From Poseidonibacter lekithochrous (lineage in GTDB: Bacteria > Campylobacterota > Campylobacteria > Campylobacterales > Arcobacteraceae), in NCBI RefSeq assembly GCF_013283835.1, contig NZ_CP054052.1, positions 3,038,001 to 3,102,000 of the forward strand: 64,000 nucleotides of DNA, given 5' to 3'. The notes below the pieces were generated by a model that saw only the letters and a program-made list of their open reading frames with translations, had not been told where the DNA came from and did no database searches. The translations under genes were made by a program, and so were the position numbers. Shown piece by piece: positions 1 through 38,858 of this stretch. The stretch's first letter is position 1. Each line of letters starts with the position of its first letter.

Positions 1-395
1 ATTTTCAAAGTGAAACATCAAATGCTTTAGCAAAGGTTTTAGGATACAAAGGTCAAGTATTAATTGGTGATAAGGCATTGAAATATTATCATGCAAATAA
101 AAACTCAGATTTTATAGATTTAGCTCAAGCTTGGAATGATAAATACAATTTGCCTTTTGTATTTGCAGTATTATGTTACTCATCAAATAAAATGCTACTT
201 GATAAATATACAAGAAAATTTAATAAAAGACATATTAAAATTCCACAATATATTTTAGAACAATATTCAAAAAGAACTGGGATTTCAAAACAAAATATTT
301 TAGACTATCTAAAAAAAATAGATTATGATTTAGGAATAAAAGAAAAAAGAGCATTAAAACTCTTCTTAAAATTAACAAAAGAAAAAGGCTTATAA
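1..395 (+). CDS. mqnA: Menaquinone biosynthesis protein MqnA (C-terminal part)
   Basis: The reading frame is open from the left edge (codons from base 3) to a TAA at 393-395, so the gene is truncated by the window. The visible 131 residues resemble the C-terminal half of MqnA, the chorismate dehydratase that starts the futalosine route to menaquinone. Seen are a [13 protein letters not shown]-like segment, then a [18 protein letters not shown] segment typical of the MqnA/MqnD periplasmic-binding fold, then a helical tail. MqnD is the main alternative, but the W-x-LPFVFAV arrangement favours MqnA. The stop overlaps the uppP start by one base (TAATG), so the two are probably translationally coupled. 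A menaquinone pathway fits the UbiD, complex I and fumarate reductase genes elsewhere in the window. Confidence 0.75.
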
Positions 396-1162
396 TGGAA
401 CTACTTGATACGGTAATACTTGGAGTAATTGAAGGTATTACAGAATTTTTACCTATTTCATCAACGGGACATTTAATTGTTGCAAGTGAATTTTTGAATA
501 TAGAACAAACAAGTGTAAATAAAGCATTTGAAGTAATTATACAGTTTGCAGCAATTTTAGCTGTAATTTTAAACTATCCATCTAAGTTTACTTTTTCACA
601 TATTAGCTTATGGACAAAAGTTTTTATTGCATTTTTACCAATAGCGGCAATTGGTTTTTTATTTTCATCTCAAGTAAAAGCAATGTTTTCAATAGAGATA
701 GTTGCATGGATGTTCATTATTGGTGGAATAGTCTTTTTAATAGTAGAGAAATTTTATGATGAGAAACAAACACATACCTTAGATGTTGAAGATATTACAT
801 ATAAACAAGCTGGATGGATTGGTTTTGCTCAAATCTTTGCTTTAATTCCAGGAACATCAAGAGCAGGTTCATCTATTATTGGAGCAATGTTAGTAGGCCT
901 TAATAGAAAAGCAAGTGCTGAATTTTCATTTTTACTTGCATTCCCTGTTATGTGTGCAACTACAGCTTATGATTTATTAAAACATCATGAAGAGTTATTA
1001 TCAGATGCAAACTTCTTAAATCTAGCTGTAGGTTTTGTTGTATCATTTATTGTAGCTTACGGAGCAATAAAACTATTCTTAAAATTCCTAGAGAACTTTA
1101 CTTTTATTGCCTTTGGAATATATAGAATAATCTTTGGTTTACTACTACTAGCTTTTATCTAA
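395..1162 (+). CDS. uppP: Undecaprenyl-diphosphatase UppP/BacA
   Basis: An integral membrane enzyme of 255 residues that dephosphorylates undecaprenyl pyrophosphate to recycle the lipid carrier for peptidoglycan. Both family signatures are present: [14 protein letters not shown] at residues 13-26 and PGTSRAGSS at 152-160 with the catalytic Arg156. Length and the seven to eight hydrophobic segments match the family. It starts on the last base of mqnA. Its 3' end overlaps the convergent murG by 15 bases, so transcription of the two genes meets head-on. Family assignment is firm. Confidence 0.95.
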
Positions 1163-24314: not shown

Positions 24315-24677
24315 ATGTCAACAGAATTAATTCTTGCATCTGTTATTTTTGTCGCAATCGGACTTATCTTAGTTGGAGTATTCACTTTAACTAGATTTAT
24401 TGGTCCTAAAAATGAACATGCGGAAATGAAAAATACAGTATATGAAAGTGGTGTATCTAACCCAGTTGGTAATACAAATATTAGATTTTCAATTAAATTT
24501 TATTTAGTTGCAATTTTATTTGTTCTGTTTGATGTGGAAATCATATTTATGTTTCCGTGGGCTGTAAATATTAAAGAACTAGGATATCTTGGACTATTTG
24601 AAATGTTCATGTTTATGGGACTTTTATTTTCAGGCTTAATTTATATATATAAGAAAAAGGCACTATCATGGGATTAG
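24315..24677 (+). CDS. nuoA: NADH-quinone oxidoreductase subunit A
   Basis: A 120-residue membrane subunit of complex I with three helices. The conserved loop YESGVSNPVG near residues 45-54 and the segment LFDVEIIFMFPWA near 73-85 with the key acidic residues are present. It is the first gene of the nuo operon, with AGGATATGAA upstream. A possible -10 TACAAT lies at about 24276-24281. Ten bases overlap nuoB. Confidence 0.95.
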   Translation: MSTELILASVIFVAIGLILVGVFTLTRFIGPKNEHAEMKNTVYESGVSNPVGNTNIRFSIKFYLVAILFVLFDVEIIFMFPWAVNIKELGYLGLFEMFMFMGLLFSGLIYIYKKKALSWD

Positions 24678-25183
24678 GCGCAGAATCAAAACTTGGTGAT
24701 TCAATAGTTACTACAAAACTTGATCACGCAGTTAACTGGGGTAGATCTTATTCGTTATGGCCAATGGTATTTGGTACTGCTTGTTGTGGTATTGAATTCA
24801 TGTCAGTTGCCGGTGCTAAATACGATTTATCTAGATTTGGAGCAGAAGTTGTAAGATTTTCTCCTAGACAAGCTGATTTACTTATTGTTGCTGGAACTAT
24901 TTCTTATAAGCAAGCACCAATTCTAAAAAAAATATATGAGCAAATGTGTGAACCTAAATGGGTTATCTCTATGGGTGCATGTGCTTGTTCAGGTGGATTT
25001 TACGATAACTACACAACATTACAAGGAATTGATGAAATCATTCCCGTAGATGAATATGTAGCAGGTTGTCCTCCAAGGCCTGAAGCTGTACTTGATGCAA
25101 TTATGAGAATTCAAGAAAAAGCTAATGATGAATCAATTATCAAAGATAGAGTTAAAGACTACAAAGGATTCTTAGATGCTTAA
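24668..25183 (+). CDS. nuoB: NADH-quinone oxidoreductase subunit B
   Basis: A 171-residue peripheral-arm subunit that holds the terminal 4Fe-4S cluster N2 next to the quinone site. Ligand motifs are clear: [10 protein letters not shown] with the adjacent cysteine pair, MGACACSGG, and the CPPRPEA motif. The start overlaps nuoA by 10 bases and the end overlaps nuoCD by 8. Confidence 0.96.
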
Positions 25184-26810
25184 ATGTGATATGTTAATTG
25201 ATTCAAGTGAAATCAAATCTACGATTTCAAAACTAAAAAATGAAGACAACTATTCAATCTTACTTGATGTTACAGTTGTTGATTACTCTAAATATCCAGA
25301 TGTAACTCCTTCTAGATTCGCTGTAATATATATTCTAAGAGATGGAAGTTTTAAAAATCAAACTTCAGTTAAAGCATATATTGATGATGCAACATTAGAA
25401 GTTGATACTATTTCTGATTTATATAAAGCTGCTGATTGGGGTGAAAGAGAAGCTTATGACCAATATGGTATAAAATTCAAAGGTCACAAAAATCTAAAAA
25501 GACTTTTAAACCATCACCAATTTTTTGGTTATCCTTTAAGAAAAGATTATCCAATTACAAAAGGTCAAATCTGTACTGAAACAGAAGATTTAATGGATGA
25601 GATGTTGCCTCTTTTAGATTCAAAAGGTTACTCTCAAGAAGAAATCAATGATTTAATGTTATTAAATGTTGGTCCTTCACACCCTGCTTCTCATGGTACT
25701 ATTAGAAACTTCGTAGCTATGGAAGGTGAAACAATCACTGCTTGTGTTACTGAAATTGGTTACTTACATAGAGGTTTTGAAAAATCTTGTGAGAATCATA
25801 CTTATTCACAAGTAATTCCCTATACAGATAGATTAAACTACTGTTCTGCTATTTTAAATAACATTGGTTATTCAAAAGCTGTTGAAGAGATGTTAAATAT
25901 CGATATTACACAAAGAGCTAAATTTATTAGAATTATTATTGGTGAGTTATCAAGAATTATTGATCACTTAGTATGTAATGCTGCAAATATGGTAGATTTA
26001 GGTGGACTTACAAACTTCTGGTATTTATTTGCTCCAAGAGATAAAGCATATGATTTATTATCAAAATTAACAGGTGCTAGACTTACAAATACATATACGA
26101 GAATCGGTGGATTAGAATTCGATTTATATGATGGTTTTGATGAAGATATGGCAGAAGTACTAAAAGATGTTGAAATTGCTATTGATGATGCATTAAGTCT
26201 AGTTGCTAGAAATAAAATTTTCCATGATAGAACACAAGATGTAGGTGTTATTAAGTCTGATTTTGCTCTTAATGCAGGAATTTCTGGACCAAACTTAAGA
26301 TCAACTGGTATTCCACATGACCTTAGAAAGGACAAACCATATTACGGATATGAAAACTTCGATTTTGATATCGTTGTTGGATCACATGGTGATGTATATG
26401 ACAGAGTAATGTGTAGATTTGAAGAAATGAGACAATCTGTAAAAATCATTAGACAAGCTATGAAAGAATTACCAGATGGAGCAATTAATGTTGATGCACC
26501 TGGTATTTTACTTCCATCTAAAAAAGATGTTTATGGAAATATTGAAGGTTTAATGAATCAATTTAAACTTACTTTTGAAGGTATAAAAGTACCAAAAGGT
26601 GAATATTATTCATCTACAGAAGCTGGAAATGGAGAATTAGGATTCTTTATTACTAGTGATGGAACAGGTACACCATACAAAGTAAAATGTAGACCACCTT
26701 GTTTTTATTCACTTGGTGCATATGCCAATATTGTAGAAGGTGGAATGCTTGCTGATGCCGTTGTTACAATGGCAAGTATGAACTTTATTGCTGGGGAGTT
26801 TGATAGATAA
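25176..26810 (+). CDS. nuoCD: NADH-quinone oxidoreductase fused subunit C/D
   Basis: A 544-residue fusion of NuoC and NuoD. The NuoC part (about 1-135) has the [17 protein letters not shown] motif and ends at GYPLRKDYP. The NuoD part starts near 160 with [13 protein letters not shown], which contains the quinone-site histidine region. The NuoC part is short, lacking part of the usual N-terminal region. C/D fusions also occur in E. coli. It connects cluster N2 to the quinone cavity. It shares one base (TAATG) with nuoE. Confidence 0.94.
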
Positions 26811-27289
26811 TGAAAACATTTACATATACAGAAGAAAATGAAAAAGAGTTTCAAAGAATTCTAAAAAAATATCCAAATTCTGATGCAATGATGCTTCCAG
26901 GACTTTGGTTAGTACAAGAACAAGAAGGATGGGTTTCACCTGAAGCTATGATTTTTATGGCTAACAGATTAAACAAATCTCCAATTGAAGTACACTCTTT
27001 TGCAACATTTTACACAATGTTCAATCTAAAACCAATTGGTACATATCATATTGAATTATGTAAAACATTATCATGCATGGTGATGGGTGCACCTGAACTT
27101 AAAAAATTCATTAAAGAGACTTTAAATATTGAACCAGGACAAACTTCAGAAGATGGAAAATTTCATTTTTCAGAAGTTGAATGCCAAGGGGCTTGTGGAG
27201 GTGCACCAATGATTGCACTAAATAATACATACCATGAAAATATGACTATTGAAAAATTAGAAAATATTATTAAGGGGTGTAGACAATGA
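26810..27289 (+). CDS. nuoE: NADH-quinone oxidoreductase subunit E
   Basis: A 159-residue thioredoxin-like 2Fe-2S subunit that binds cluster N1a. The four ligand cysteines are in CKTLSC and CQGAC. The GAPM segment follows. Length and motifs are normal for the family. It works with NuoF in the electron-input module and is absent from Campylobacter and Helicobacter complex I. It overlaps nuoF by four bases. Confidence 0.93.
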   Translation: MKTFTYTEENEKEFQRILKKYPNSDAMMLPGLWLVQEQEGWVSPEAMIFMANRLNKSPIEVHSFATFYTMFNLKPIGTYHIELCKTLSCMVMGAPELKKFIKETLNIEPGQTSEDGKFHFSEVECQGACGGAPMIALNNTYHENMTIEKLENIIKGCRQ

Positions 27290-28560
27290 GTTCAAACGAC
27301 ATGATTGTAAAAATTGTAAGTAAAAACTTTGACATTCCAGATTCACATAAACTAGATGTTGCTTTAAAAAACGGAAGATATGAATCAATTGATAAACTTT
27401 TTTCAATGACACCTGAAGATGTAACTGAAGAAGTTTGTAAAAGTGGACTTAGAGGAAAAGGTGGTGGTGGAGCTGCTTGTGGACCTAAATGGAAATTAAT
27501 GCCACCAGTTGATGAAAGACCTAGATATTTAATAGCTAACGGGGATGAATCAGAACCAGGAACTTTTAAAGATAGACAAATTTTTGAATACGATCCACAT
27601 CTTTTAATTGAGGGGATTATCTGTTCTTCTTATGCAATTGGAGCACATGATTGTTTTATCTACATTAGAGGAGAATATAAATTCTTTATTGATAGATTAA
27701 ATGCTGCAATTGAAGAAGCTTACGAAGCTGGTATTATTGGTGATAAAATCATGAACAAATATGATTATAGAATGAATATTACAGTTCACAGAGGTGGTGG
27801 AGCATATATTTGTGGTGAAAAATCAGCACTTATTGAATCTATTGAAGGTAAAAGAGGACATCCAAGACTTAAACCACATGGTAAAGAGTGTGAATGGTTC
27901 TTTGGAGATCCTGCAACTGTAAATAATGTTGAAACAATTGCTTCAGTTCCTAATATTGTATTAAATGGTTATGAATCATATACAAAATACGGTACAGAGA
28001 AAGCACCTGGCACTATGCTATTTGCAATGAGTGGTCCAGTTAACAACCCTGGTGTATACGAACTAGCCTACGGTAATAAAATGACTGATGTTATCGAAAA
28101 AATTGGTGGTGGTATGAAAAATGGATTAAAGCTTAAAGCTGTAATCCCAGGTGGTGCTTCATGTCCTATATTAACTGCTGAAGAAGTTGAAAAAGCTTAC
28201 TTAGATTATGAATCTATGTGGGATATTGGTTCAACTTTAGGGACAGGTGGAATGATGATTATTCCTGAAGGTGTATCAATGGTTGAAGTTGCTAAAAACT
28301 TAATTGAATTTTATCATCATGAATCGTGTGGTCAATGTACACCTTGCCGTGAGGGTTGTGGATGGATTGATACAATTATTCATAAAATTCTTGAAGGAAA
28401 AGGTTCCAGTGAAGATTTAAATACAATACTTGATGTATGTGGCACAATGAACGGAAAAACAGTTTGTGTTTTTGCACCAGCTGTTAAAGACATTATTCAA
28501 AGTATTGTAGAGAAATATGCACATGAATTTGAAACATATTTCAAAAAAGAAAACAAATAA
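27286..28560 (+). CDS. nuoF: NADH-quinone oxidoreductase subunit F with altered NADH pocket
   Basis: A 424-residue subunit that normally binds NADH, FMN and cluster N3. The N3 motif ESCGQCTPCREGC and FMN-region residues (NGDESEPGTFKDR at 85-97) are kept. The glycine-rich loop reads GKGGGGAACG (57-66) where others have GRGGAGFPTG, so the stacking phenylalanine is an alanine. GEET is GEKS (177-180), and KPPFPA is KPHGKE (196-201). By remembered Thermus Nqo1 numbering these replace Phe70, Glu185 and Phe205, all NADH contacts. The protein is otherwise full length and in frame. The donor may not be NADH. gltA follows after 38 bases. Confidence 0.9.
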   Translation: MSSNDMIVKIVSKNFDIPDSHKLDVALKNGRYESIDKLFSMTPEDVTEEVCKSGLRGKGGGGAACGPKWKLMPPVDERPRYLIANGDESEPGTFKDRQIFEYDPHLLIEGIICSSYAIGAHDCFIYIRGEYKFFIDRLNAAIEEAYEAGIIGDKIMNKYDYRMNITVHRGGGAYICGEKSALIESIEGKRGHPRLKPHGKECEWFFGDPATVNNVETIASVPNIVLNGYESYTKYGTEKAPGTMLFAMSGPVNNPGVYELAYGNKMTDVIEKIGGGMKNGLKLKAVIPGGASCPILTAEEVEKAYLDYESMWDIGSTLGTGGMMIIPEGVSMVEVAKNLIEFYHHESCGQCTPCREGCGWIDTIIHKILEGKGSSEDLNTILDVCGTMNGKTVCVFAPAVKDIIQSIVEKYAHEFETYFKKENK

Positions 28561-28598: not shown

Positions 28599-29885
28599 AT
28601 GGCAAAAAATACTATGACACTAACTGACAATAGAAATGGTAAAGCTTATGAATACAATATTATAGATGGGACAAGAGGTCCAAGTGTAGTTGATATTAGT
28701 TCATTCTACAGAGATTCAGGTATGTTTACTTATGACCCAGGTTATACTTCAACAGCATCTTGTGAATCAAAAATTACGTTTATTGATGGTGAGAATTCAG
28801 AGTTAAGATATAGAGGTTACGATATTGCTGATTTAGCTGGTAAACACTCTTACTTAGACGTATGTTACTTATTAATGAGAGGTAAATTACCTACTCCTGA
28901 AGCTTCTAAAAACTTCGATTTAGAAATTAGACATAGATCATTCTTAAACGAAGGTTTAATTAAAATCTTTGATGCATTCCCAGATGGAGCACATCCAATG
29001 GCAACTATGGGAGCTGCAACTATGGCGCTTTCAACATTCTATAAAGATCACTTAAACTTAGAAGATGAAGCTGAATTCAAAACTATGAGAAGAAGAATTG
29101 TTGCTAAAATGCCAACAATTGCTGCAATGGCTTATAGAAAATCAATTGGAACACCTTTAATTTACCCAGATGTAAATAGATACTTTACTGAAAACTTCTT
29201 ATATATGTTAAGAGCATATCCAGGTGGTTCTATGAAAAGATTAGCAGATGGTTCAAATGAAGAGATTAAACAAATTGAAGTTGATGCAATGGATGCAATC
29301 TTTACATTACATGCTGATCACGAACAAAATGCTTCTACTACTACTGTAAGAGCTGTTGGTTCAACAGAAGCTCACCCTTACGTTGCTATTTCTTCTGGTA
29401 TTGCTGCATTATGGGGATCTGCTCATGGTGGTGCAAATGAAAAAGTAATGGATCAATTAAAAATGATTGGTGATATTAAAAATGTTCCTACTTATATTGC
29501 TAAAGCAAAAGATAGAAACGATCCATTCAGACTTATGGGATTCGGACACAGAGTATATAAAAATAGAGATCCAAGAGCTGAATGTTTAAAAGGATTACAA
29601 GATCAATTAAGAGAAGAATTAAATCTTGACTCTAAATTATTAGATATTGCTGCTGCTGTTGAAGAAGCTGCATTAAATGATGATTACTTCAAAGAAAGAG
29701 GTTTATATCCAAATATTGACTTCTATTCTGGTGTTATCTTAACTGCGCTTAAAATTCCAGTTGAAATGTTTACTCCAATTTTCGTAATCGGAAGAACTCC
29801 AGGTTGGATTACACAATGGTCTGAATTAAAACAAGATCCTAAGCATAAAATTGCTAGACCAAGACAATTATATACAGGTAACTAA
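28599..29885 (+). CDS. gltA: Citrate synthase (type II)
   Basis: A 428-residue citrate synthase that condenses acetyl-CoA with oxaloacetate. Catalytic regions are seen: the histidine in GSAHGGANE, and GFGHRVYKNRDPRA with the second histidine and arginine. Length is typical of the hexameric type II enzyme. It has its own strong ribosome binding site (AAAGGAGA) and gaps of 38 and 34 bases to nuoF and nuoG, while the nuo genes mostly overlap or abut. No terminator lies on either side, so co-transcription with complex I is likely. Confidence 0.95.
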   Translation: MAKNTMTLTDNRNGKAYEYNIIDGTRGPSVVDISSFYRDSGMFTYDPGYTSTASCESKITFIDGENSELRYRGYDIADLAGKHSYLDVCYLLMRGKLPTPEASKNFDLEIRHRSFLNEGLIKIFDAFPDGAHPMATMGAATMALSTFYKDHLNLEDEAEFKTMRRRIVAKMPTIAAMAYRKSIGTPLIYPDVNRYFTENFLYMLRAYPGGSMKRLADGSNEEIKQIEVDAMDAIFTLHADHEQNASTTTVRAVGSTEAHPYVAISSGIAALWGSAHGGANEKVMDQLKMIGDIKNVPTYIAKAKDRNDPFRLMGFGHRVYKNRDPRAECLKGLQDQLREELNLDSKLLDIAAAVEEAALNDDYFKERGLYPNIDFYSGVILTALKIPVEMFTPIFVIGRTPGWITQWSELKQDPKHKIARPRQLYTGN

Positions 29886-29919: not shown

Positions 29920-31356
29920 ATGAGTGAAATGGTAGAAATCACAGTCAATGGCGCACAAATGCAAGCTTCCAAAGGAAGCTTGTTAATTGATAAATTATTG
30001 GATGAGAATATCCATATTCCTCATTTTTGTTATCACCAAGCACTAGGTAAAGATGGTAACTGTAGAATGTGTATGGTAGCAATTGAAGGTCAAAAAAGAC
30101 CTCAAATTGCATGTGATACACCTATTAAAGATGGAATGGTAGTAAGAACTAAGGGCGAAAATATCGAGAAAGTAAGACGAGATATTTTAGAACTACAACT
30201 TATTAACCATCCTATTGATTGTCCTACATGTGATCAAGCTGGTGAATGTAAACTACAAGATTACTACATGGAATCTGGTTTTTATGAATCAAGAGTAAAT
30301 GTAAATAATAAAACTACGCATCGTAAAAGAGTCGATTTAGGCGCTAATGTAATGCTAGATGAAGAAAGATGTGTACTTTGTACAAGATGTGTAAGATTCT
30401 GTAAAGATATTACAAAAACAAGTGAACTTGGTGTAATTGATAGAACAGATCACTCTACTATTGGAATTTTTCCAGGACGTCCCCTATATAATCCTTATGC
30501 TATGAATGTTGTTGATTTATGTCCAGTTGGAGCATTAACTTCAAAAGATTTTAGATTCAAACAAAGAGTTTGGTTCTTAGAAACATTTGATGCTATATGT
30601 AATGGCTGTTCAAAAGGATGTAACATAAGTGTTGATCATAGAAAAGAAAAATATAAAGATGACCAAATTCATAGATTTAGACCACGTGCTAATAAAGAAG
30701 TTAACGGTTGGTTTATGTGTGATGAGGGTAGATTATCTTACGAAAATGAAAATCAAAATAGATTTGAAACTCCTTTATTAAATAAAGAAACAACAAATCT
30801 TAGTAATACAATAACAAATATGTTTAAAGAGTTATCAACAAAAAAAGATATCTTATTTGTATTAAGTCCAAATCTTTCTTATGAAGAAATGTCAAATCTT
30901 AAAAATTTAGCAGAAAAATTAAATGCAAAAATTAGTGGATATTCACCAGATACTTTTGATGAATCATTTGGTGATGATTACTTAAGAAAAAGTGACAAAA
31001 CTGCTAATAGAGCATCATTTAAAGAACTAAAAGTTAATGAAGAAGAGTCTTATTTCAAAGACTCATTAGAAAAAGCACAATTAGTAATAATTGTTGATTC
31101 TTCATTCTTTGAAGAAAACTCGCAATTATTAGAAGGTAAAACAGTTATTTCACTATTTAGTCATAACTGCTTAACTTTAAGTAAATCAAATATTGCAATA
31201 CCTATTGCATCATTCTATGAGAAATCAGGAACATATATCAACTGTGATGGTATAAAACAAAGAGTGATTTCTCAAATGAATAAAAATAATCCAATGGAAA
31301 CTATTACCTCTGTAATAGAACATCTAAAAGAAATGATTGGTAAAGGAACTCTATGA
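29920..31356 (+). CDS. nuoG: NADH-quinone oxidoreductase subunit G, short form
   Basis: An iron-sulfur subunit of 478 residues. Seen are a 2Fe-2S site (Cys37, 48, 51, 65), the N5 site (His97, Cys101, 104, 110), the N4-type 4Fe-4S site (Cys151, 154, 157 and 201) and an N7-like site (Cys227, 230, 234, 267). After residue 270 only about 200 residues remain of the molybdopterin-oxidoreductase-like domain; usual NuoG has 700-900 residues. The stop overlaps nuoH in the normal ATGA manner, so the shortness is not a recent frameshift. The electron wire itself looks complete. Confidence 0.9.
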   Translation: MSEMVEITVNGAQMQASKGSLLIDKLLDENIHIPHFCYHQALGKDGNCRMCMVAIEGQKRPQIACDTPIKDGMVVRTKGENIEKVRRDILELQLINHPIDCPTCDQAGECKLQDYYMESGFYESRVNVNNKTTHRKRVDLGANVMLDEERCVLCTRCVRFCKDITKTSELGVIDRTDHSTIGIFPGRPLYNPYAMNVVDLCPVGALTSKDFRFKQRVWFLETFDAICNGCSKGCNISVDHRKEKYKDDQIHRFRPRANKEVNGWFMCDEGRLSYENENQNRFETPLLNKETTNLSNTITNMFKELSTKKDILFVLSPNLSYEEMSNLKNLAEKLNAKISGYSPDTFDESFGDDYLRKSDKTANRASFKELKVNEEESYFKDSLEKAQLVIIVDSSFFEENSQLLEGKTVISLFSHNCLTLSKSNIAIPIASFYEKSGTYINCDGIKQRVISQMNKNNPMETITSVIEHLKEMIGKGTL

Positions 31357-32630
31357 GTACGGGAATAATAATTGCTGTAAATATATTACTAGCTGTTGTA
31401 TTAGCAGTTGGGTTAACACCACTTTTTGTTTGGTGGGAAAGAAGAATATCTGCTTTTATGCAAGATAGAACTGGTCCTAACCGATGTAATATTGGTCCTT
31501 TGAGATTAGGTGGATTAATTCAAAGTTTTGCAGATATGTTAAAACTTGTTTTTAAAGAAGACTTCACACCTTCACATATTAAATATAAGTTTTTCTTTAC
31601 TATTGCACCTGCAATTGTTTTCTTATGTTCATTTTTAACATTTGCAACAATTCCTTTTGCTGATAATTTAGTAATTGATGGAAAATCATTTATTATGCAA
31701 GCTGTTCCAAATGAATTAGGAATCATGTGGTTCCTAGCTTTTGCTGGACTTGCAATCTATGGAATTATTTTAGGTGGTTATTCATCTCAAAATAAATATG
31801 GATTATTAGGTTCAATTAGAGCATCAGCTCAAGTAATTTCATATGAAGCAGCAATGGCGTTAGCAATTATCTCAATGCTTTTATCTTATGGTTCAATTCA
31901 CTTAACAGATATGGTAAATGCACAAGCAGGAGTATTCTGGGGTGTTGTTCCAATGTGGGGAATCTTTATTCAACCACTAGCAGCTGTAATTTTTATTGTT
32001 TGTGCTTTTGCAGAAACAAATAGAGCACCTTTTGATATTGCAGAGGGTGAATCAGAAATTGTTGCGGGTTATCATACTGAATATTCAGCAATGAGATTTG
32101 GTCTTTTCCAAGTTGGTGAATACGCTGCTATGTCTGCATCATCGGCTATTATTGTTACTTTATTCTTTGGTGGATATCAAATTCCTTGGTTAGATACACA
32201 AACAATTCAAAGTAATATAAACTATGTAATCGTTGCTATTATGATTTTATTACCAATCAAAATCTTTATTTTTACAAGATGGATGAAAAAGAATAATAAA
32301 ACAAAAGGTGATGGGGATTTAAGAAGAGAAAAAGAAACAAAGATTTTAACTACAGCATTCTGGGCTATATGTGTTGGAATTGTTGGGCTTCTAGCTATAT
32401 TCTTAATCACAGGATTAGGAACTAATGGGATTAATATTGTAACTGCTGTTCTTCAAGTTGGAACATTCTTAGTTAAATTTTTTATGATGGCATTTGTTTA
32501 TATTTGGGTTAGATGGACTGTTCTTAGATTCAGATATGACCAATTACAAATGTTAGGGTGGAAAGTGTTATTACCATTGGCACTTTTAAATATTGTTGTA
32601 ACTGCAACATTTATTGTAGTAGGAAGTTAA
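31353..32630 (+). CDS. nuoH: NADH-quinone oxidoreductase subunit H, extended
   Basis: A membrane subunit that joins the peripheral arm and forms the quinone chamber. Conserved loops are present: WERRISAFMQDRTGPNR near residues 28-44, and AETNRAPFDIAEGESEIVAGYHTEY near 220-245. The length of 425 exceeds the usual 325-340. The extra material is after residue 290: a charged linker (KKNNKTKGDGDLRREKE) and at least one extra hydrophobic helix before the conserved FVYIWVRWT end segment. It overlaps nuoG by four bases. Confidence 0.93.
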   Translation: MSTGIIIAVNILLAVVLAVGLTPLFVWWERRISAFMQDRTGPNRCNIGPLRLGGLIQSFADMLKLVFKEDFTPSHIKYKFFFTIAPAIVFLCSFLTFATIPFADNLVIDGKSFIMQAVPNELGIMWFLAFAGLAIYGIILGGYSSQNKYGLLGSIRASAQVISYEAAMALAIISMLLSYGSIHLTDMVNAQAGVFWGVVPMWGIFIQPLAAVIFIVCAFAETNRAPFDIAEGESEIVAGYHTEYSAMRFGLFQVGEYAAMSASSAIIVTLFFGGYQIPWLDTQTIQSNINYVIVAIMILLPIKIFIFTRWMKKNNKTKGDGDLRREKETKILTTAFWAICVGIVGLLAIFLITGLGTNGINIVTAVLQVGTFLVKFFMMAFVYIWVRWTVLRFRYDQLQMLGWKVLLPLALLNIVVTATFIVVGS

Positions 32631-32631
32631 T

Positions 32632-33138
32632 ATGGGAATTAAAGTAGTACCAAGACACGGTAAATCATTTAAAGACAAATTATATCTACCTGCAATTGCA
32701 GGGGGAATGAAAACAACTTTTAAACACTTTGTAAAAAACTTAAAAGATGTAGATAACCTAAAAACAATGCAATACCCAGAGGTTCAACCTGATGATCTTA
32801 ATGAAAGATACAGAGGGGTTCATAGACTTACAAAATGGGAAGATGAAACTGAAAAATGTGTTGCTTGTTATATGTGTGCAACAGCATGTCCTGCTGATTG
32901 TATTTTTATTGAAGCAGAAGAGAGATTTGATGATCACGATGAAAAACGACCTAAAGAATTCAAAATTGATTTATTAGAGTGTGTATTCTGTGGTTATTGT
33001 GTTGAAGCTTGTCCTTGTGATGCAATTAGAATGGATACAGGTATCTTTTCATTTACAGCAGGAACAAGAGAAGAGTTTGTATTAGATAAAAAAGCTTTAA
33101 TGGCAAACGAAAGATCAAAGGATTTAGATAATGATTGA
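32632..33138 (+). CDS. nuoI: NADH-quinone oxidoreductase subunit I
   Basis: A 168-residue ferredoxin-like subunit with clusters N6a and N6b. Two full 4Fe-4S motifs are visible: CVACYMCATACPADC and CVFCGYCVEACPCDA. It passes electrons to NuoB. One base separates it from nuoH and it overlaps nuoJ by eight bases. Confidence 0.96.
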   Translation: MGIKVVPRHGKSFKDKLYLPAIAGGMKTTFKHFVKNLKDVDNLKTMQYPEVQPDDLNERYRGVHRLTKWEDETEKCVACYMCATACPADCIFIEAEERFDDHDEKRPKEFKIDLLECVFCGYCVEACPCDAIRMDTGIFSFTAGTREEFVLDKKALMANERSKDLDND

Positions 33139-33658
33139 TTTAATTTTTATTGCATTAGCTTTTTCAGCAATATCTGGTGCAATTGCTATGATTGTATATG
33201 CAAATCCAATGTACAGTGCTCTTGGGGTTTTAATCTCAATGTTAAGTGTTGCAGGAATGTTTGCTTTACTTAATGCCACTTTCCTTTTCTTAGTTCAAAT
33301 CATTGTTTATGCAGGTGCTATTATGACTTTGATTTTATTCATCTTAATGTTCTTAAATATTAAAGAAGAAGATTTACCAAAAGAACCAAAGAAATATACA
33401 TTAATAGCATTAGGTGCTGTTGTTATGATTCCTTTAAATATCTTAATATTAAAAGCTGTAGCTAAACTTCCTGCAAAAGATTTTAATATTACAAACAGTG
33501 ATTTTGGAGATATTAAACCAATTGGTATTCAACTTTATAATAATTGGTTATTAGCATTTGAGTTAATCTCAATTCTATTGTTAGTTGCATTAATTGGATC
33601 TGTTGTATTAGCAAAGAAAAGATCATCAAAAATCACAAACACAGGAGATGAAGCATGA
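33131..33658 (+). CDS. nuoJ: NADH-quinone oxidoreductase subunit J
   Basis: A 175-residue membrane subunit with five hydrophobic helices. The conserved third-helix segment QIIVYAGAIMTLILFILMFL is present; in known structures this region contains the pi-bulge. It overlaps nuoI by eight and nuoK by four bases. Confidence 0.93.
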   Translation: MIDLIFIALAFSAISGAIAMIVYANPMYSALGVLISMLSVAGMFALLNATFLFLVQIIVYAGAIMTLILFILMFLNIKEEDLPKEPKKYTLIALGAVVMIPLNILILKAVAKLPAKDFNITNSDFGDIKPIGIQLYNNWLLAFELISILLLVALIGSVVLAKKRSSKITNTGDEA

Positions 33659-33969
33659 TATCATTAACATCTTATGCCTTTGTATCAATGGCTCTATTTT
33701 CTATTGGGGTAATAGGTGTAATTGCAAGAAGAAATGTATTTGTAATTTATATGTCTATTGAAATGATGTTAAATGGTATTAACTTATTCCTAGTAACATT
33801 TGCTAGATACCATTTTAGTATGGACCCTCAAGTTGTAACAGTTATGGTAATTGCAATTGCTGCTGCGGAAGCTGCTATTTTCTTATCAGTAATTATTCTA
33901 TTATATCGATCAAGAAAATCTCTTGATACTGATATCTTTACAACTCTTACACAAGGAGAAAAATCATGA
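33655..33969 (+). CDS. nuoK: NADH-quinone oxidoreductase subunit K
   Basis: A 104-residue membrane subunit with three helices. The two membrane glutamates important for proton transfer are visible, in MSIEMMLNGINL and in AAAEAAIFLS. Length matches the family. It overlaps both neighbours by four bases. Confidence 0.94.
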   Translation: MISLTSYAFVSMALFSIGVIGVIARRNVFVIYMSIEMMLNGINLFLVTFARYHFSMDPQVVTVMVIAIAAAEAAIFLSVIILLYRSRKSLDTDIFTTLTQGEKS

Positions 33970-35852
33970 GTACATCACTACTTGTATGGATAATTTTAGC
34001 TCCTTTATTAGGTGCTATTTTATTAGGTGGTTTATATTTATATCATATTAAAAAAGAAAAAGTTTCTGAATTAACTTTTTCACTAATTGGATGTATTACT
34101 CCTTTGATATCATTTTTAATAACTTTATCTTTATTCTTAAGAATGAATGATGAAGGTATTATTTTTAAACAGCAATTATTCACATGGATTAATATTGATA
34201 AACTAAATATCGATATGGCATTACTTGGCGATAACTTATCAATTTTTATGACTATGTTTGTAACATTTGTTGGATGGTTAATTCACATTTATGCAATTGG
34301 TTATATGAGAGGTGATAATGGTTTTGGTAAGTTCTTTGCTTATTTCAATTTATTCTTAGCTTCAATGTTAATTTTAGTATTAGCAGATAACCCAATTATT
34401 CTTTTCATTGGATGGGAAGGTGTTGGAGTTTGTTCATATTTACTAATTAAATTCTATTATGGAAAATCAGAAAATATTATCGCAGCAAATAAAGCATTTA
34501 TTGCAAATAGAGTTGGAGATTTTGGTTTCTTACTTGGAGTTGTAACTTTATTCTTTGCACTAGGAGAAGTTGATTTATCATTTGCTTCAATAGAATCAAA
34601 TATTTCAAATGCTTCAAATGAATTATTAATCCTTTCTGGATTCTTGTTATTTGTAGGAGCTATGGGAAAATCAGCACAGGTTCCATTATATGTATGGCTT
34701 CCAGATGCAATGGCAGGACCAACTCCAATTTCGGCATTAATTCATGCTGCTACTATGGTAACAGCTGGTGTTTATATGGTTGCAAGATTCCACTTCTTAT
34801 ATTCAGGTATTGAAGAGATTGGATTATTTATTGCATACATTGGAGCAATATCTGCACTATTTGCAGCAGTAATTGCAACAAGACAAACAGACATCAAAAA
34901 AATTCTTGCTTACTCAACAATGAGTCAATTAGGGTATATGTTTATTGCAGTTGGTCTTGGGTTTTATTCAACTGGACTATTCCATGTATTTACACATGCA
35001 TTCTTTAAAGCCATGTTATTCATGGGTGCTGGTGGTATTATTATAGCACTTCACCATGAACAAAATATCTTTAAGATTGCACAACATAGAGCTCAACTTC
35101 CTATAATTGGAGCAACGTTCTTAGTTGGAGTTATAGCAATTTCAGGTATTCCACCATTCTCTGGTTTCTTCTCAAAAGATGCAATCTTAGCAGCAGCATT
35201 CCAAGAAGGTGAATATTTAATTTGGGCAATTGCATTAGGAACAGCATTTTTAACAGCATTTTACATGTTTAGAATGTATTTTATTATATTTGTTGCACCA
35301 ACAAAACATAGATCACAATATACATACACATCTAAAACAATTACAATTCCATTACTAATATTAGCAATTGGAGCAATTGGGGCTGGGTTCTTAAACTTAC
35401 CAACAATATTTGGTGGAGAACATTTAGTTGATACTTGGTTAGGACAATTAAATTCTAAGACAATTCATATGAGTCACTTAACAGAATGGATATTAGTGAT
35501 CACTTCAGTTGCAGTTGCATCTGCTGGTATTTACGTTTCATATAAAAAGTATGCAAACTTTGATGTTACTAAACCAGAAGAAGAAGTGGGATTAATTGGA
35601 AATAAATTCTATGTTGATGAAATTTATGATGCAATTTTTGTTAAAACTTCAAAAAAACTATCAGTATTTATTGATAAAGTTTTAGATGACAAAATTATTG
35701 ATGGATTTATTATGAGTTCATCAAAAGGTTTTGTTAACTTAGGTAAAAAAGTTGCAATGATTCAAAATGCAAATGTAAGATTTTACGCACTATTCATGTT
35801 ATTAGGAATGACTTGTGTGTTTATCTATTTATTAACTACTTTAGGATTATAG
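33966..35852 (+). CDS. nuoL: NADH-quinone oxidoreductase subunit L
   Basis: An antiporter-like proton-pumping subunit of 628 residues with about sixteen helices and the C-terminal lateral helix. Conserved segments are visible: GWEGVGVCSYLLI near residues 149-161 with the key glutamate, KSAQVPLYVWLPDAMAGPTPISALIHAATMV (given in part) near 235-265, and the lysine and histidines of the proton path. It overlaps nuoK by four bases. Confidence 0.96.
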   Translation: MSTSLLVWIILAPLLGAILLGGLYLYHIKKEKVSELTFSLIGCITPLISFLITLSLFLRMNDEGIIFKQQLFTWINIDKLNIDMALLGDNLSIFMTMFVTFVGWLIHIYAIGYMRGDNGFGKFFAYFNLFLASMLILVLADNPIILFIGWEGVGVCSYLLIKFYYGKSENIIAANKAFIANRVGDFGFLLGVVTLFFALGEVDLSFASIESNISNASNELLILSGFLLFVGAMGKSAQVPLYVWLPDAMAGPTPISALIHAATMVTAGVYMVARFHFLYSGIEEIGLFIAYIGAISALFAAVIATRQTDIKKILAYSTMSQLGYMFIAVGLGFYSTGLFHVFTHAFFKAMLFMGAGGIIIALHHEQNIFKIAQHRAQLPIIGATFLVGVIAISGIPPFSGFFSKDAILAAAFQEGEYLIWAIALGTAFLTAFYMFRMYFIIFVAPTKHRSQYTYTSKTITIPLLILAIGAIGAGFLNLPTIFGGEHLVDTWLGQLNSKTIHMSHLTEWILVITSVAVASAGIYVSYKKYANFDVTKPEEEVGLIGNKFYVDEIYDAIFVKTSKKLSVFIDKVLDDKIIDGFIMSSSKGFVNLGKKVAMIQNANVRFYALFMLLGMTCVFIYLLTTLGL

Positions 35853-35853
35853 T

Positions 35854-37341
35854 ATGAGTTCAGATATACTTTCGTTTATTATATTTTTACCTGCAATTGT
35901 TGCATTTGGTTTAATGCTTACAACTAGGGATGTTAATACAATCAGAAATATTGCATTTTTGACTACTACAGTTATTTTAGCACTTGTACTAAAGATTTAT
36001 ATAGAGTTCATTCCTGGTGAAGGAATGCAGTTTGTAACAAATGTACCTTGGATTGAAACTTATGGTATTAATTATTATGTAGGTTTAGATGGATTTTCTT
36101 TAACTATTTTAATGATGATTGCCATCTTAATACCAACTTCTTATTTATTATTATGGGAAGGTAGAACTAAAGGTTACTGGATTAATATGTTATTAGTTCA
36201 AACAGGGGTAACTGGTACATTATTATCACTTGATGTTGTATTATTCTATTTCTTCTGGGAAGTAATGTTATTACCAGTTTTCTTAATGATTGGTTCATAC
36301 GGTTTTGGTGAAAAGGTATATACAACTATTAAAGTAACAGTTTATACAATGGTTGGTTCATTATTAATGTTCATTGCTATTTTATACTTAGGTGTTGCTT
36401 ATCATGCAGAATTTGGTACATGGTCATTTGCTTATAATGAGCTAATGAAAATAACTACAATTGATTACAATACTAAAGTATGGTTGTTCCTTGGATTCTT
36501 AGCAGCATTTGCAATTAAAATTCCTATTTTCCCTCTTCATACATGGATTATGGAAACATATAAAAATGCTCCTACTGGTGCAGTTTTCTTATTATCTTCA
36601 ATAATGGCTAAACTTGGAGTTTATGCAATTGTAAGATTTATGATTCCTATTTTCCCAGAAATTTATATTGAATTCTCAGTTTATTTTGTGGCTATTGGTT
36701 TATTTGGTTTAGTTTATTTTGGAATTGCAGCACTTATGCAAGATGATATAAAAAGAATGTTTGCTTACTCATCAGCATCACATTTAAGTTTCATTGCAGC
36801 TGGTATTTTCTCACTAAATGAATATGGTATCAATGGAGCTTTATATTTAATTATAGCTCATGCTATTGCAACAGGTGCATTATTCTTACTTATAGGATTA
36901 ATTCACGAAGAAACTGGATTTAAAACTATTAAAGACTTAGGTGGAATAGCAAAGCAAGCTCCTGTATTAACTTTTATATTTGCAATTATGTTATTTGCAA
37001 ATGTTGGATTACCAGGAACTAATGGATTTGTTTCAGAGTTATTAATCATATTTGGTATTTATGAGTTTAATCATACCCTTGGATATATCTCAGCTACTAC
37101 AGTTGTTATTGGAGCTTCATATATGTTATGGATGTTTCAAAGAGCTATTTTACAAGATAGACCAGAGGGAAGCCCCGTTCTAAAAATGAGAGACTTAAAA
37201 ATTAAAGAAATGATTGGTTTAGCACCATGGGTAATTTTAGTATTCTTAATGGGACTATATCCAGAAATTTTTATTAATAAGTTTGAACCAACAGTTACAC
37301 ATTACTTAAATGACATTTTACATATTGGAGCATCAAAATGA
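35854..37341 (+). CDS. nuoM: NADH-quinone oxidoreductase subunit M
   Basis: An antiporter-like proton-pumping subunit of 495 residues with about fourteen helices. The [14 protein letters not shown] segment with its conserved glutamate and the [19 protein letters not shown] segment with the proton-path lysine are present. One base separates it from nuoL, and it overlaps nuoN by four. Confidence 0.95.
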
Positions 37342-38858
37342 GTGAATTTATATATTTAATTCCAGCATTAACTGTATTAACAGGTGCATTAGTACTTATG
37401 TTTATGAGTATGTACGAAAGTTTTACAGTTAAAAACTTTATTGTTGTTTCTTGTATTTTCTTATTTATTGCATTTGGATTTTCATTATCACAAATTGGTG
37501 AAGCATATTCTGTTCAACCATATAATGATTTATTAAATAATGTATTAATATTTGATTCTTTTTCAAACTTCTTTAATATTTTACTAATAGCAGGAACAAT
37601 ATTAACACTATTAATTGGTGAACATTACTTCCAACATAGAGAATACTTTAAAGGTGAATTTTTCTCAATTTTATTATTTGCACTATTTGGAATGATGGTA
37701 TTAGGATATTCAAACGAATTAGTAACAGCATATATTGCTCTTGAAATTGCTTCTTTTGCAGTTTATATTATGGTTGGATACAACACTGAAGACTCAAAAA
37801 GAGTTGAAGCAATATTTAAATATCTAGTATTAGGTTCATTTATTGGAGCATTTTACTTATTAGGTGTTGTTTTAGTTTATGGAGCATCTGCTACTACAAA
37901 CTTAAGTGAATTATCTGTATTTATTAATTCTGCATCTGATGACCAAATGATTTTAGTGTACATAGGGTTAACATTAATTCTATTTACATTCCTATTTAAA
38001 ATTGCAGCATTTCCATTCCAATCTTGGGTACTTGATGTATATAGAGGTGCACCTATGGTTGTTACTGCGTATATGGCATCAACATTTAAAATTGCTATAT
38101 TCTCATTTTTCCTTAGAGCATTTTTACAAGACTTCGGATTAACTCTTGATTTCTGGGATACAATTATTTCAGTAATTATTGTATTTACTTTAGTATTTGG
38201 TACATGGTTAGCAGTAACACAAAAAATTGTAAAAAGAATGCTTGCAGCTTCTTCAATTGTGCACACTGGTTACTTATTATTAGCATTCATCGCATTAAGT
38301 TACAAAGATGGACAAATTGTAAATATTGAATCTGCTTATGCAACAATGTTCTATTTAATTGCATACCTTTTATCTGCTCTTGGAGCATTTGGTCTTGCAT
38401 CTCATATTATTTCAGAAACAAATGTAAGAGTTACATATGACGATTTCAAAGGTTTAGCAAAAGAGAGACCATTCTTAGCTGCAATGATGACAATATTCTT
38501 ATTCTCATTAGCAGGGATTCCTTCAACTATTGGATTCATTGGTAAATTTTATGTATTCACTGAAGCAATTAACGCTGGATATGCAGGATTAACTGTATTG
38601 GCTGTATTTGCAACAATTGTATCAGTTTACTACTACTTTAAACTAATTGCAGTTATGTATTTTTATCCAACAAAACAAGAATGTATATCTGTAGAATTTA
38701 ATGATAAGAGAGTTTCAACTTATGCAATTGCATTTGTTGCAATCTTGACTGTTTTAGGTGGGGTTGGATCTGCAATTGTATTCTTTATCCCTGCATTAAA
38801 TATTGACCAAATTATTATACTTGCTCAAACAGCAGTACAATCTTTATTTATAAAATAG
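37338..38858 (+). CDS. nuoN: NADH-quinone oxidoreductase subunit N
   Basis: The third antiporter-like subunit, 506 residues and about fourteen helices. The segments [20 protein letters not shown], with the conserved lysine and tryptophan, and [17 protein letters not shown], with the glutamate, are clear. It is the last gene of the nuo operon. A hairpin with a T-rich tail follows immediately. Confidence 0.95.

Follow-up and report, generated by a model that had tools for sequence, protein, structure and literature searches.

The window, a 64,000-nucleotide stretch of the Poseidonibacter lekithochrous genome (assembly GCF_013283835.1, contig NZ_CP054052.1, positions 3,038,001 to 3,102,000 of the forward strand), carries a complex I operon with the gene order nuoA-B-CD-E-F, a gltA-like gene and nuoG-H-I-J-K-L-M-N (Table 1). 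Its NuoG has 478 residues. The open reading frame list and the translation contain no internal stop for this gene, whose 3' end reads ...TATGAG, with the TGA overlapping the nuoH ATG at 31353 (ATGA), and no minus-strand frame of at least 80 residues is listed opposite nuoG in the window. Several names used here are assumed: nuoA is named from likeness and position, the names of nuoB and of nuoI, J, K, L, M and N are assumed too, N1b, N5, N4 and N7 are the customary cluster names applied to the 16 ligand positions, and the gltA-like gene is, by likeness, presumably a citrate synthase.

Table 1. Features of the nuo operon in window coordinates, under the names assumed in the text.
Feature	Coordinates	Strand	Basis
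nuoA	24315..24677	+	ORF; orthologues at related loci
nuoB	24668..25183	+	ORF; orthologues at related loci
nuoCD (fused)	25176..26810	+	Corresponds to a pair of distinct ORFs in the second complex I operon
nuoE	26810..27289	+	2Fe-2S_thioredx match
nuoF, altered FMN/nucleotide motifs	27286..28560	+	Pfam/NCBIfam matches, motif alignment
gltA-like gene between nuoF and nuoG	28599..29885	+	ORF; orthologues at related loci
nuoG, compact form, 478 aa	29920..31356	+	ORF, Pfam and NCBIfam matches, AlphaFold2 model
N1b [2Fe-2S] ligands Cys37, 48, 51, 65	30028..30114	+	Fer2_4 match; invariant
N5 ligands His97, Cys101, 104, 110	30208..30249	+	NADH-G_4Fe-4S_3 match; invariant
N4 ligands Cys151, 154, 157, Cys201	30370..30522	+	Fer4_Nqo3 match; invariant
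N7 ligands Cys227, 230, 234, Cys267	30598..30720	+	Molybdop_Fe4S4 match; invariant
Molybdopterin-like domain in reduced form (residues 286-478; a single alpha/beta lobe)	30775..31353	+	PF00384, pLDDT, long-NuoG alignment
Junction (residues 341-380), longer by >100 residues in long NuoG	30940..31059	+	Alignments
nuoH, ATGA overlap with nuoG	31353..32630	+	ORF, sequence of overlap
nuoI, J, K, L, M, N	32632..38858	+	ORFs; orthologues at related loci

The compact NuoG is encoded together with other nuo genes here, and the Arcobacteraceae loci of sufficient length have nuoE and nuoF on its 5' side and nuoH-N on its 3' side. Every one of the 36 family loci L001-L036 has the gltA-like gene 5' of nuoG, as do L057 and 18 of the 19 loci L074-L092, the exception being L084; the remaining loci of these two sets gave no gltA-like match adjoining nuoG. 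Fusion of nuoC and nuoD is not general, the two being separate in a second nuo operon of the same genome and at several compact loci of Myxococcota type.

Cluster ligands and fold of the compact NuoG

NuoG matches the Pfam families Fer2_4, NADH-G_4Fe-4S_3, Fer4_Nqo3 and Molybdop_Fe4S4. The N1b, N5 and N4 ligand sets stand in the NuoG arrangement, and the N7 set is present as well. All 16 ligands are invariant in 56 of 56 short NuoG sequences taken from genomes (own copy L001 counted) and in 73 of 73 sequences aligned in A2 (own copy P0001 counted), which supports the complete cluster set described in the earlier note. A2 comprises the window's NuoG and 72 of 80 GTDB loci. The eight loci not included are L079, L080, L082, L091, L111, L118, L130 and L144; in four of them a contig end interrupts the gene, and the other four were dropped to thin out near relatives.

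Behind the clusters the protein is reduced. Of the 353 positions of the PF00384 model, only 24-122 and 290-330 find a match, and the middle is absent; the molybdopterin-like part amounts to about 190 residues, with an internal gap and a C-terminal loss, close to the 200 or so estimated in the earlier note. The complete PF00384 region and C-terminal piece of the full-length E. coli and Thermus type are lacking. The NCBIfam model TIGR01973 scores 363.5 bits, below its cut-off of 470.05; a missing stretch of this kind lowers such a score.

Which residues are missing? When the A2 profile is aligned to the plant mitochondrial NuoG 7ar7_G, profile position 339 falls on residue 352 and position 377 on residue 513, about 38 profile positions facing 161 residues of the long form at the gap site. 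An AlphaFold2 model built from the 73 sequences has a pLDDT of 91.4 and a pTM of 0.87. It is confident over most of residues 270-478, the part for which the earlier note had proposed a prediction (ten-residue blocks 281-470 at pLDDT 94-98, last block 68), and weakest in blocks 91-130 (64-77), where N5 binds. The model superposes on solved NuoG chains over 453-466 of its 478 residues, and a NuoG fold is thereby predicted along the whole protein. On the mouse chain it covers 464 residues (model 1..476 on chain 5..610). With Paracoccus denitrificans NuoG (8qby_G, 666 residues modelled; Z 27.6, 461 residues, 2.5 A, model 2..475 on chain 2..590) it shares the N-terminal Fe-S domains and one alpha/beta lobe, whereas the Paracoccus chain is longer by about 115 residues inside the superposed region and by about 75 beyond it. 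Thermus thermophilus NuoG/Nqo3 (3i9v_3, 754 residues; Z 26.3, 456 residues, 2.7 A) and E. coli NuoG (7z7r_G, 905 residues; a Foldseek match) are likewise related but much longer. The top row of the structure table is not a NuoG at all, being NfnA (9n5u_A; Z 28.0, 412 residues, 3.1 A), with a Z tied with those of the NuoG rows.

Superpositions and profile alignment together point to one internal and one C-terminal stretch: compared with Paracoccus and mitochondrial NuoG, the model lacks about 115-130 internal and about 80 C-terminal residues, a pattern unlike that of a ragged truncation. The molybdopterin-like domain has shed an internal lobe and a C-terminal piece, with one folded alpha/beta lobe left beside the N7 domain. 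In molybdoenzyme terms the lost lobe is domain III and the C-terminal piece a remnant of domain IV.

At the junction the columns of window residues 341-380 hold 34-49 residues in 16 compact rows sampled from several phyla and 148-245 in 13 long rows; the window's NuoG has 40. We define the compact NuoG class by this shortened junction, which stands where long forms have the internal lobe. D352, L355 and N363 are invariant at the junction in all 73 compact rows. Since the long rows carry N363 in 13 of 13 cases, L355 in 6 and D352 in one, D352 at most may serve as a marker of the compact form, and N363 was rejected as its hallmark. A junction-motif pattern was too strict to be usable, since it picked up one of five compact rows and none of the other 15, and the alignment was used instead.

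Length, conservation and origin

How unusual is a NuoG of this length? Of the 43 genomes listed for the organism's own family, 36 have a like-sized orthologue, and a compact match was found in 80 of 397 sampled Campylobacterota genomes; both counts rest on matches at E<=1e-109 whose open frames measure 450-556, the next weaker match being at 6.6e-50. These and the phylum-wide genome counts given below were tallied by hand from the listed rows. Nearest by identity among the GTDB loci are the NuoG of Arcobacter sp. UBA7394 (96%) and that of a P. lekithochrous record (81%). The earlier note had considered that all close relatives might have a long NuoG; the opposite was found, 17 of the 19 Arcobacteraceae-like GTDB loci (L074-L092) encoding 478 residues, with one of 472 and one cut by a contig end, when counted from the residue matching the window start (the first possible start of L084 gives 489).

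Nor is the form peculiar to this organism. The best 80 GTDB loci belong by title to Campylobacterota, Desulfobulbales, Myxococcales, other Deltaproteobacteria, Ignavibacteria, Nitrospirae, Methylomirabilis and Glassbacteria. Their 76 complete frames span 445-560 residues (median 489.5, from the match to the window start), lengths biased to compact because the loci are the best hits of a capped scan with a compact query. Four phylum-wide samples are broader than this set and share the same compact query, and their open-frame lengths include in-frame upstream extension, which can overstate the protein (a 786-residue frame was trimmed to 502, a 723-residue frame to 572). The phylum of the myxobacterial relative has frames of 516-630 in 37 of 42 matching genomes (57 searched); that of the ignavibacterial relative, 560-632 in 52 and 320-402 in 17 of 77 matching genomes (118 searched); that of the Desulfobulbus relative, 460-573 in 13 of the 15 strongest matches, weaker ones being mostly long or about 350-400. 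Among 51 matching genomes (60 searched) from the phylum of the Nitrospirae relative, only three are compact (511-543), one is 319 and the others are 695-885. Compact and long NuoG therefore coexist across bacteria in proportions that vary by phylum. The usual length of 700-900 residues given in the earlier note fits E. coli, Thermus, mitochondria and this last phylum, in which long forms rule, and does not extend to bacteria at large, as the myxobacterial relative's phylum illustrates. Even shorter are the Bacteroidota-type NuoG of L166, L167 and L168 (316-335 residues), whose match to P0001 stops at residue 285-296.

Could the gene be a frameshift, an assembly error or a decaying copy beside an intact one? 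The genome does hold a second nuo operon with an 824-residue NuoG, which could be cited for such a reading. That protein is a distant paralogue (26% identity), however, and no source copy. The length shared by the 17 Arcobacteraceae-like loci, the retention of every ligand and the ATGA overlap, which the earlier note had already held against a frameshift, argue in the same direction. Pairwise dN/dS (14 pairs, several with dS near or above 1) is 0.04-0.19 for residues 1-285 and 0.10-0.41 for residues 286-478; by these estimates the tail appears looser than the N-terminal part, yet under purifying selection. We reject frameshift and error on length conservation and purifying selection, and leave damage of any kind virtually no chance. 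In this family a short NuoG is the norm and no mark of damage, and this correction is the main import of the analysis for the window. Length filters and whole-protein cut-offs, such as the TIGR01973 threshold that failed here, can under-call complex I.

A quick-method tree, built on 277 columns of the N-terminal part and on 68 rows thinned for speed from 94, has a branch (support 86, not starred) that sets the 52 compact NuoG apart from all others; the program warned that several long branches meet, which they do elsewhere in the tree. The compact group of the tree includes one 704-residue row with a C-terminal extension and the long group one 637-residue row. By this tree, the class is perhaps of single origin. 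Campylobacterota and Desulfobulbales form one set of 29 (support 100*), which makes Desulfobulbales, in the tree, the closest sharers of the compact form with Campylobacterota. A compact NuoG of 520 residues from Desulfobulbus sp. Tol-SR (L127) has the same architecture and a like junction of 40 residues; it differs from the window's NuoG by about 37 more C-terminal residues and by a neighbouring NuoF with canonical GRGGAGF and GEET motifs. A Campylobacteraceae MAG (L129) groups within Desulfobulbales, and the three Bacteroidota-type NuoG form another branch.

Molybdopterin-type proteins elsewhere in the genome

The earlier note had suggested a search for a separate protein that covers the missing domain. 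A profile search of the whole genome with PF00384 and TIGR01973 gave no candidate in the window (3038001-3102000) besides NuoG. Eight other genome stretches match PF00384 above the cut-off, one of them a protein of 568 residues, and these are what could be cited for a lobe supplied in trans. Seven are frames of 667-948 residues, the size of whole molybdoenzymes. The eighth, a stand-alone molybdopterin-oxidoreductase-like protein (L073:967-2673, minus strand), has its own CPLDCYDAC motif and a PF00384 match at 17-321, and is encoded about 135 kb away from nuoG. A ninth stretch, below the cut-off, lies in the second complex I operon. With none of the eight in the window and the compact form occurring in several phyla, we consider supply in trans very improbable.

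In that second operon (L037, G000:C1:3422000-3441000) nuoC and nuoD are distinct genes, and nuoE and nuoF gave no match. The 824-residue NuoG encoded there resembles the window's in the NuoG-like N-terminal part and in lying within a nuo operon, and differs in its long form. The operon also encodes a 269-residue protein that we take, on our own reading, to be NuoG-like; the weak PF00384 match just mentioned lies in this operon. The operon is like the Campylobacterota complex I type with nuoXY and without nuoEF that is described in PMC6682613, and according to PMC4585668 the genome of Sulfurospirillum multivorans also encodes two forms of complex I.

NuoF and electron transfer

Adjacent to the compact NuoG, the window's NuoF reads GKGGGGA where the canonical motif is GRGGAGF, and GEKSAL where it is GEETAL. 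The same replacements, Lys at the Glu of GEET and Ala or Gly at the Phe of GRGGAGF, characterize the Campylobacterota, which make up 50 of 63 NuoF rows (the record titles of L077, L125 and L149 give no phylum, and the first two are assigned to Campylobacterota by their NuoG and L149 is counted among the others; the 63 include duplicates, L045/L132 being identical and L049/L129 and L050/L131 the same record). All 13 rows from outside Campylobacterota, also beside compact NuoG, have the canonical Glu and Phe. In E. coli NuoF, the Glu of the GEET motif reportedly decides between NADH and NADPH, and a changed nucleotide specificity of the Campylobacterota enzyme is possible from its sequence.

Are the two changes one adaptation? 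The earlier note had set the reduced NuoG right beside the altered NuoF, and a joint response to a different electron donor, with another partner docking on the exposed face of the arm, would account for their coincidence in the 50 Campylobacterota rows. The usual partner is also not always adjoining, since nine loci with compact NuoG, of Myxococcota and similar types (L135, L138, L140-L143, L146, L147, L150), gave no nuoE or nuoF match in the fetched stretch; they do not bear on whether the two changes are separable. However, the 13 canonical NuoF outside Campylobacterota mean that NuoG reduction needs no NuoF change. On this ground we rejected altered NuoF as a necessary partner of compact NuoG; judged from these alignments the two changes appear separable, and a single adaptation is quite improbable. 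A sequential reading is conceivable, if rather unlikely: compact NuoG would mark one old complex I lineage present in several phyla, in which the lobe was lost once, and Campylobacterota NuoF would have been altered afterwards (Glu to Lys, Phe to Ala/Gly), the donor being NADPH or another and the enzyme no ordinary NADH dehydrogenase.

We think it very probable that the window's protein is an orthologue of NuoG/Nqo3 and an ordinary electron carrier of a NuoEF-containing complex I, belonging to a widespread compact class. By analogy with the family, electrons from NuoE and NuoF would pass through the N1b, N4 and N5 clusters towards NuoI, and N7 would be an off-path structural cluster. NuoG binds no molybdenum cofactor according to passages of PMC5123574, and electron transfer is therefore expected to be intact; the loss would spare it and trim the outer scaffold only. 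Because the residues are missing, the outer face of the peripheral arm would be changed, as the earlier note supposed.

In the same passages of PMC5123574, N7 is not universal in the NuoG family, lies off the electron path and is required for stability. Compact NuoG retains its ligand set despite the loss of most of the domain that usually follows, which fits that role, and N7 may serve structurally here too. The Glu434 column has Glu in 54 of the 73 A2 rows and the Arg281 column Arg in 64 of 73. We tentatively map these two residues to the salt-bridge pair of PMC5123574. On that mapping of the Glu434 column, a stabilising salt bridge may be lost in some compact NuoG. What such a naturally slim NuoG offers is a measure of how much can go with all four cluster sites kept, and a test case for the role of the molybdopterin-like relic.

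In favour of an ordinary NuoG, in the group of genomes designated g10 compact NuoG is the sole match at E<=1e-20 in 10 of the 17 genomes listed (at most four candidates scored per genome). The literature on Arcobacter NuoG or complex I and on a compact NuoG class, mostly papers open without subscription and thus weak evidence of absence, gave no description of the form. The species A. butzleri carries nuoEF where other Campylobacterota have nuoXY (PMC6682613), and its nuoA-N operon is oxygen-regulated, loss of the regulator lowering ATP and growth (PMC11334517). Excerpts of PMC5492636 report that rotenone halts aerobic growth of Melioribacter roseus (Ignavibacteria) and that its NuoG rises with aerobic growth; two other Ignavibacteria loci encode a compact NuoG of 560 residues, distinct from the M. 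roseus gene. Counting against this reading, as do the TIGR01973 score, the low model confidence around N5, the NfnA row and the Glu434 column, the NuoEF-type complex I of S. multivorans was scarcely seen in its proteome in the conditions used in PMC4585668.

Gene order varies among the loci compared. Sulfurospirillum-type loci (L038-L040, L048 and similar) have nuoG-N apart from nuoA-F in the fetched stretch, and in L041 nuoF adjoins nuoN on the opposite strand. The nine loci of Myxococcota type and similar have the order C-D-G-H-I where complete.
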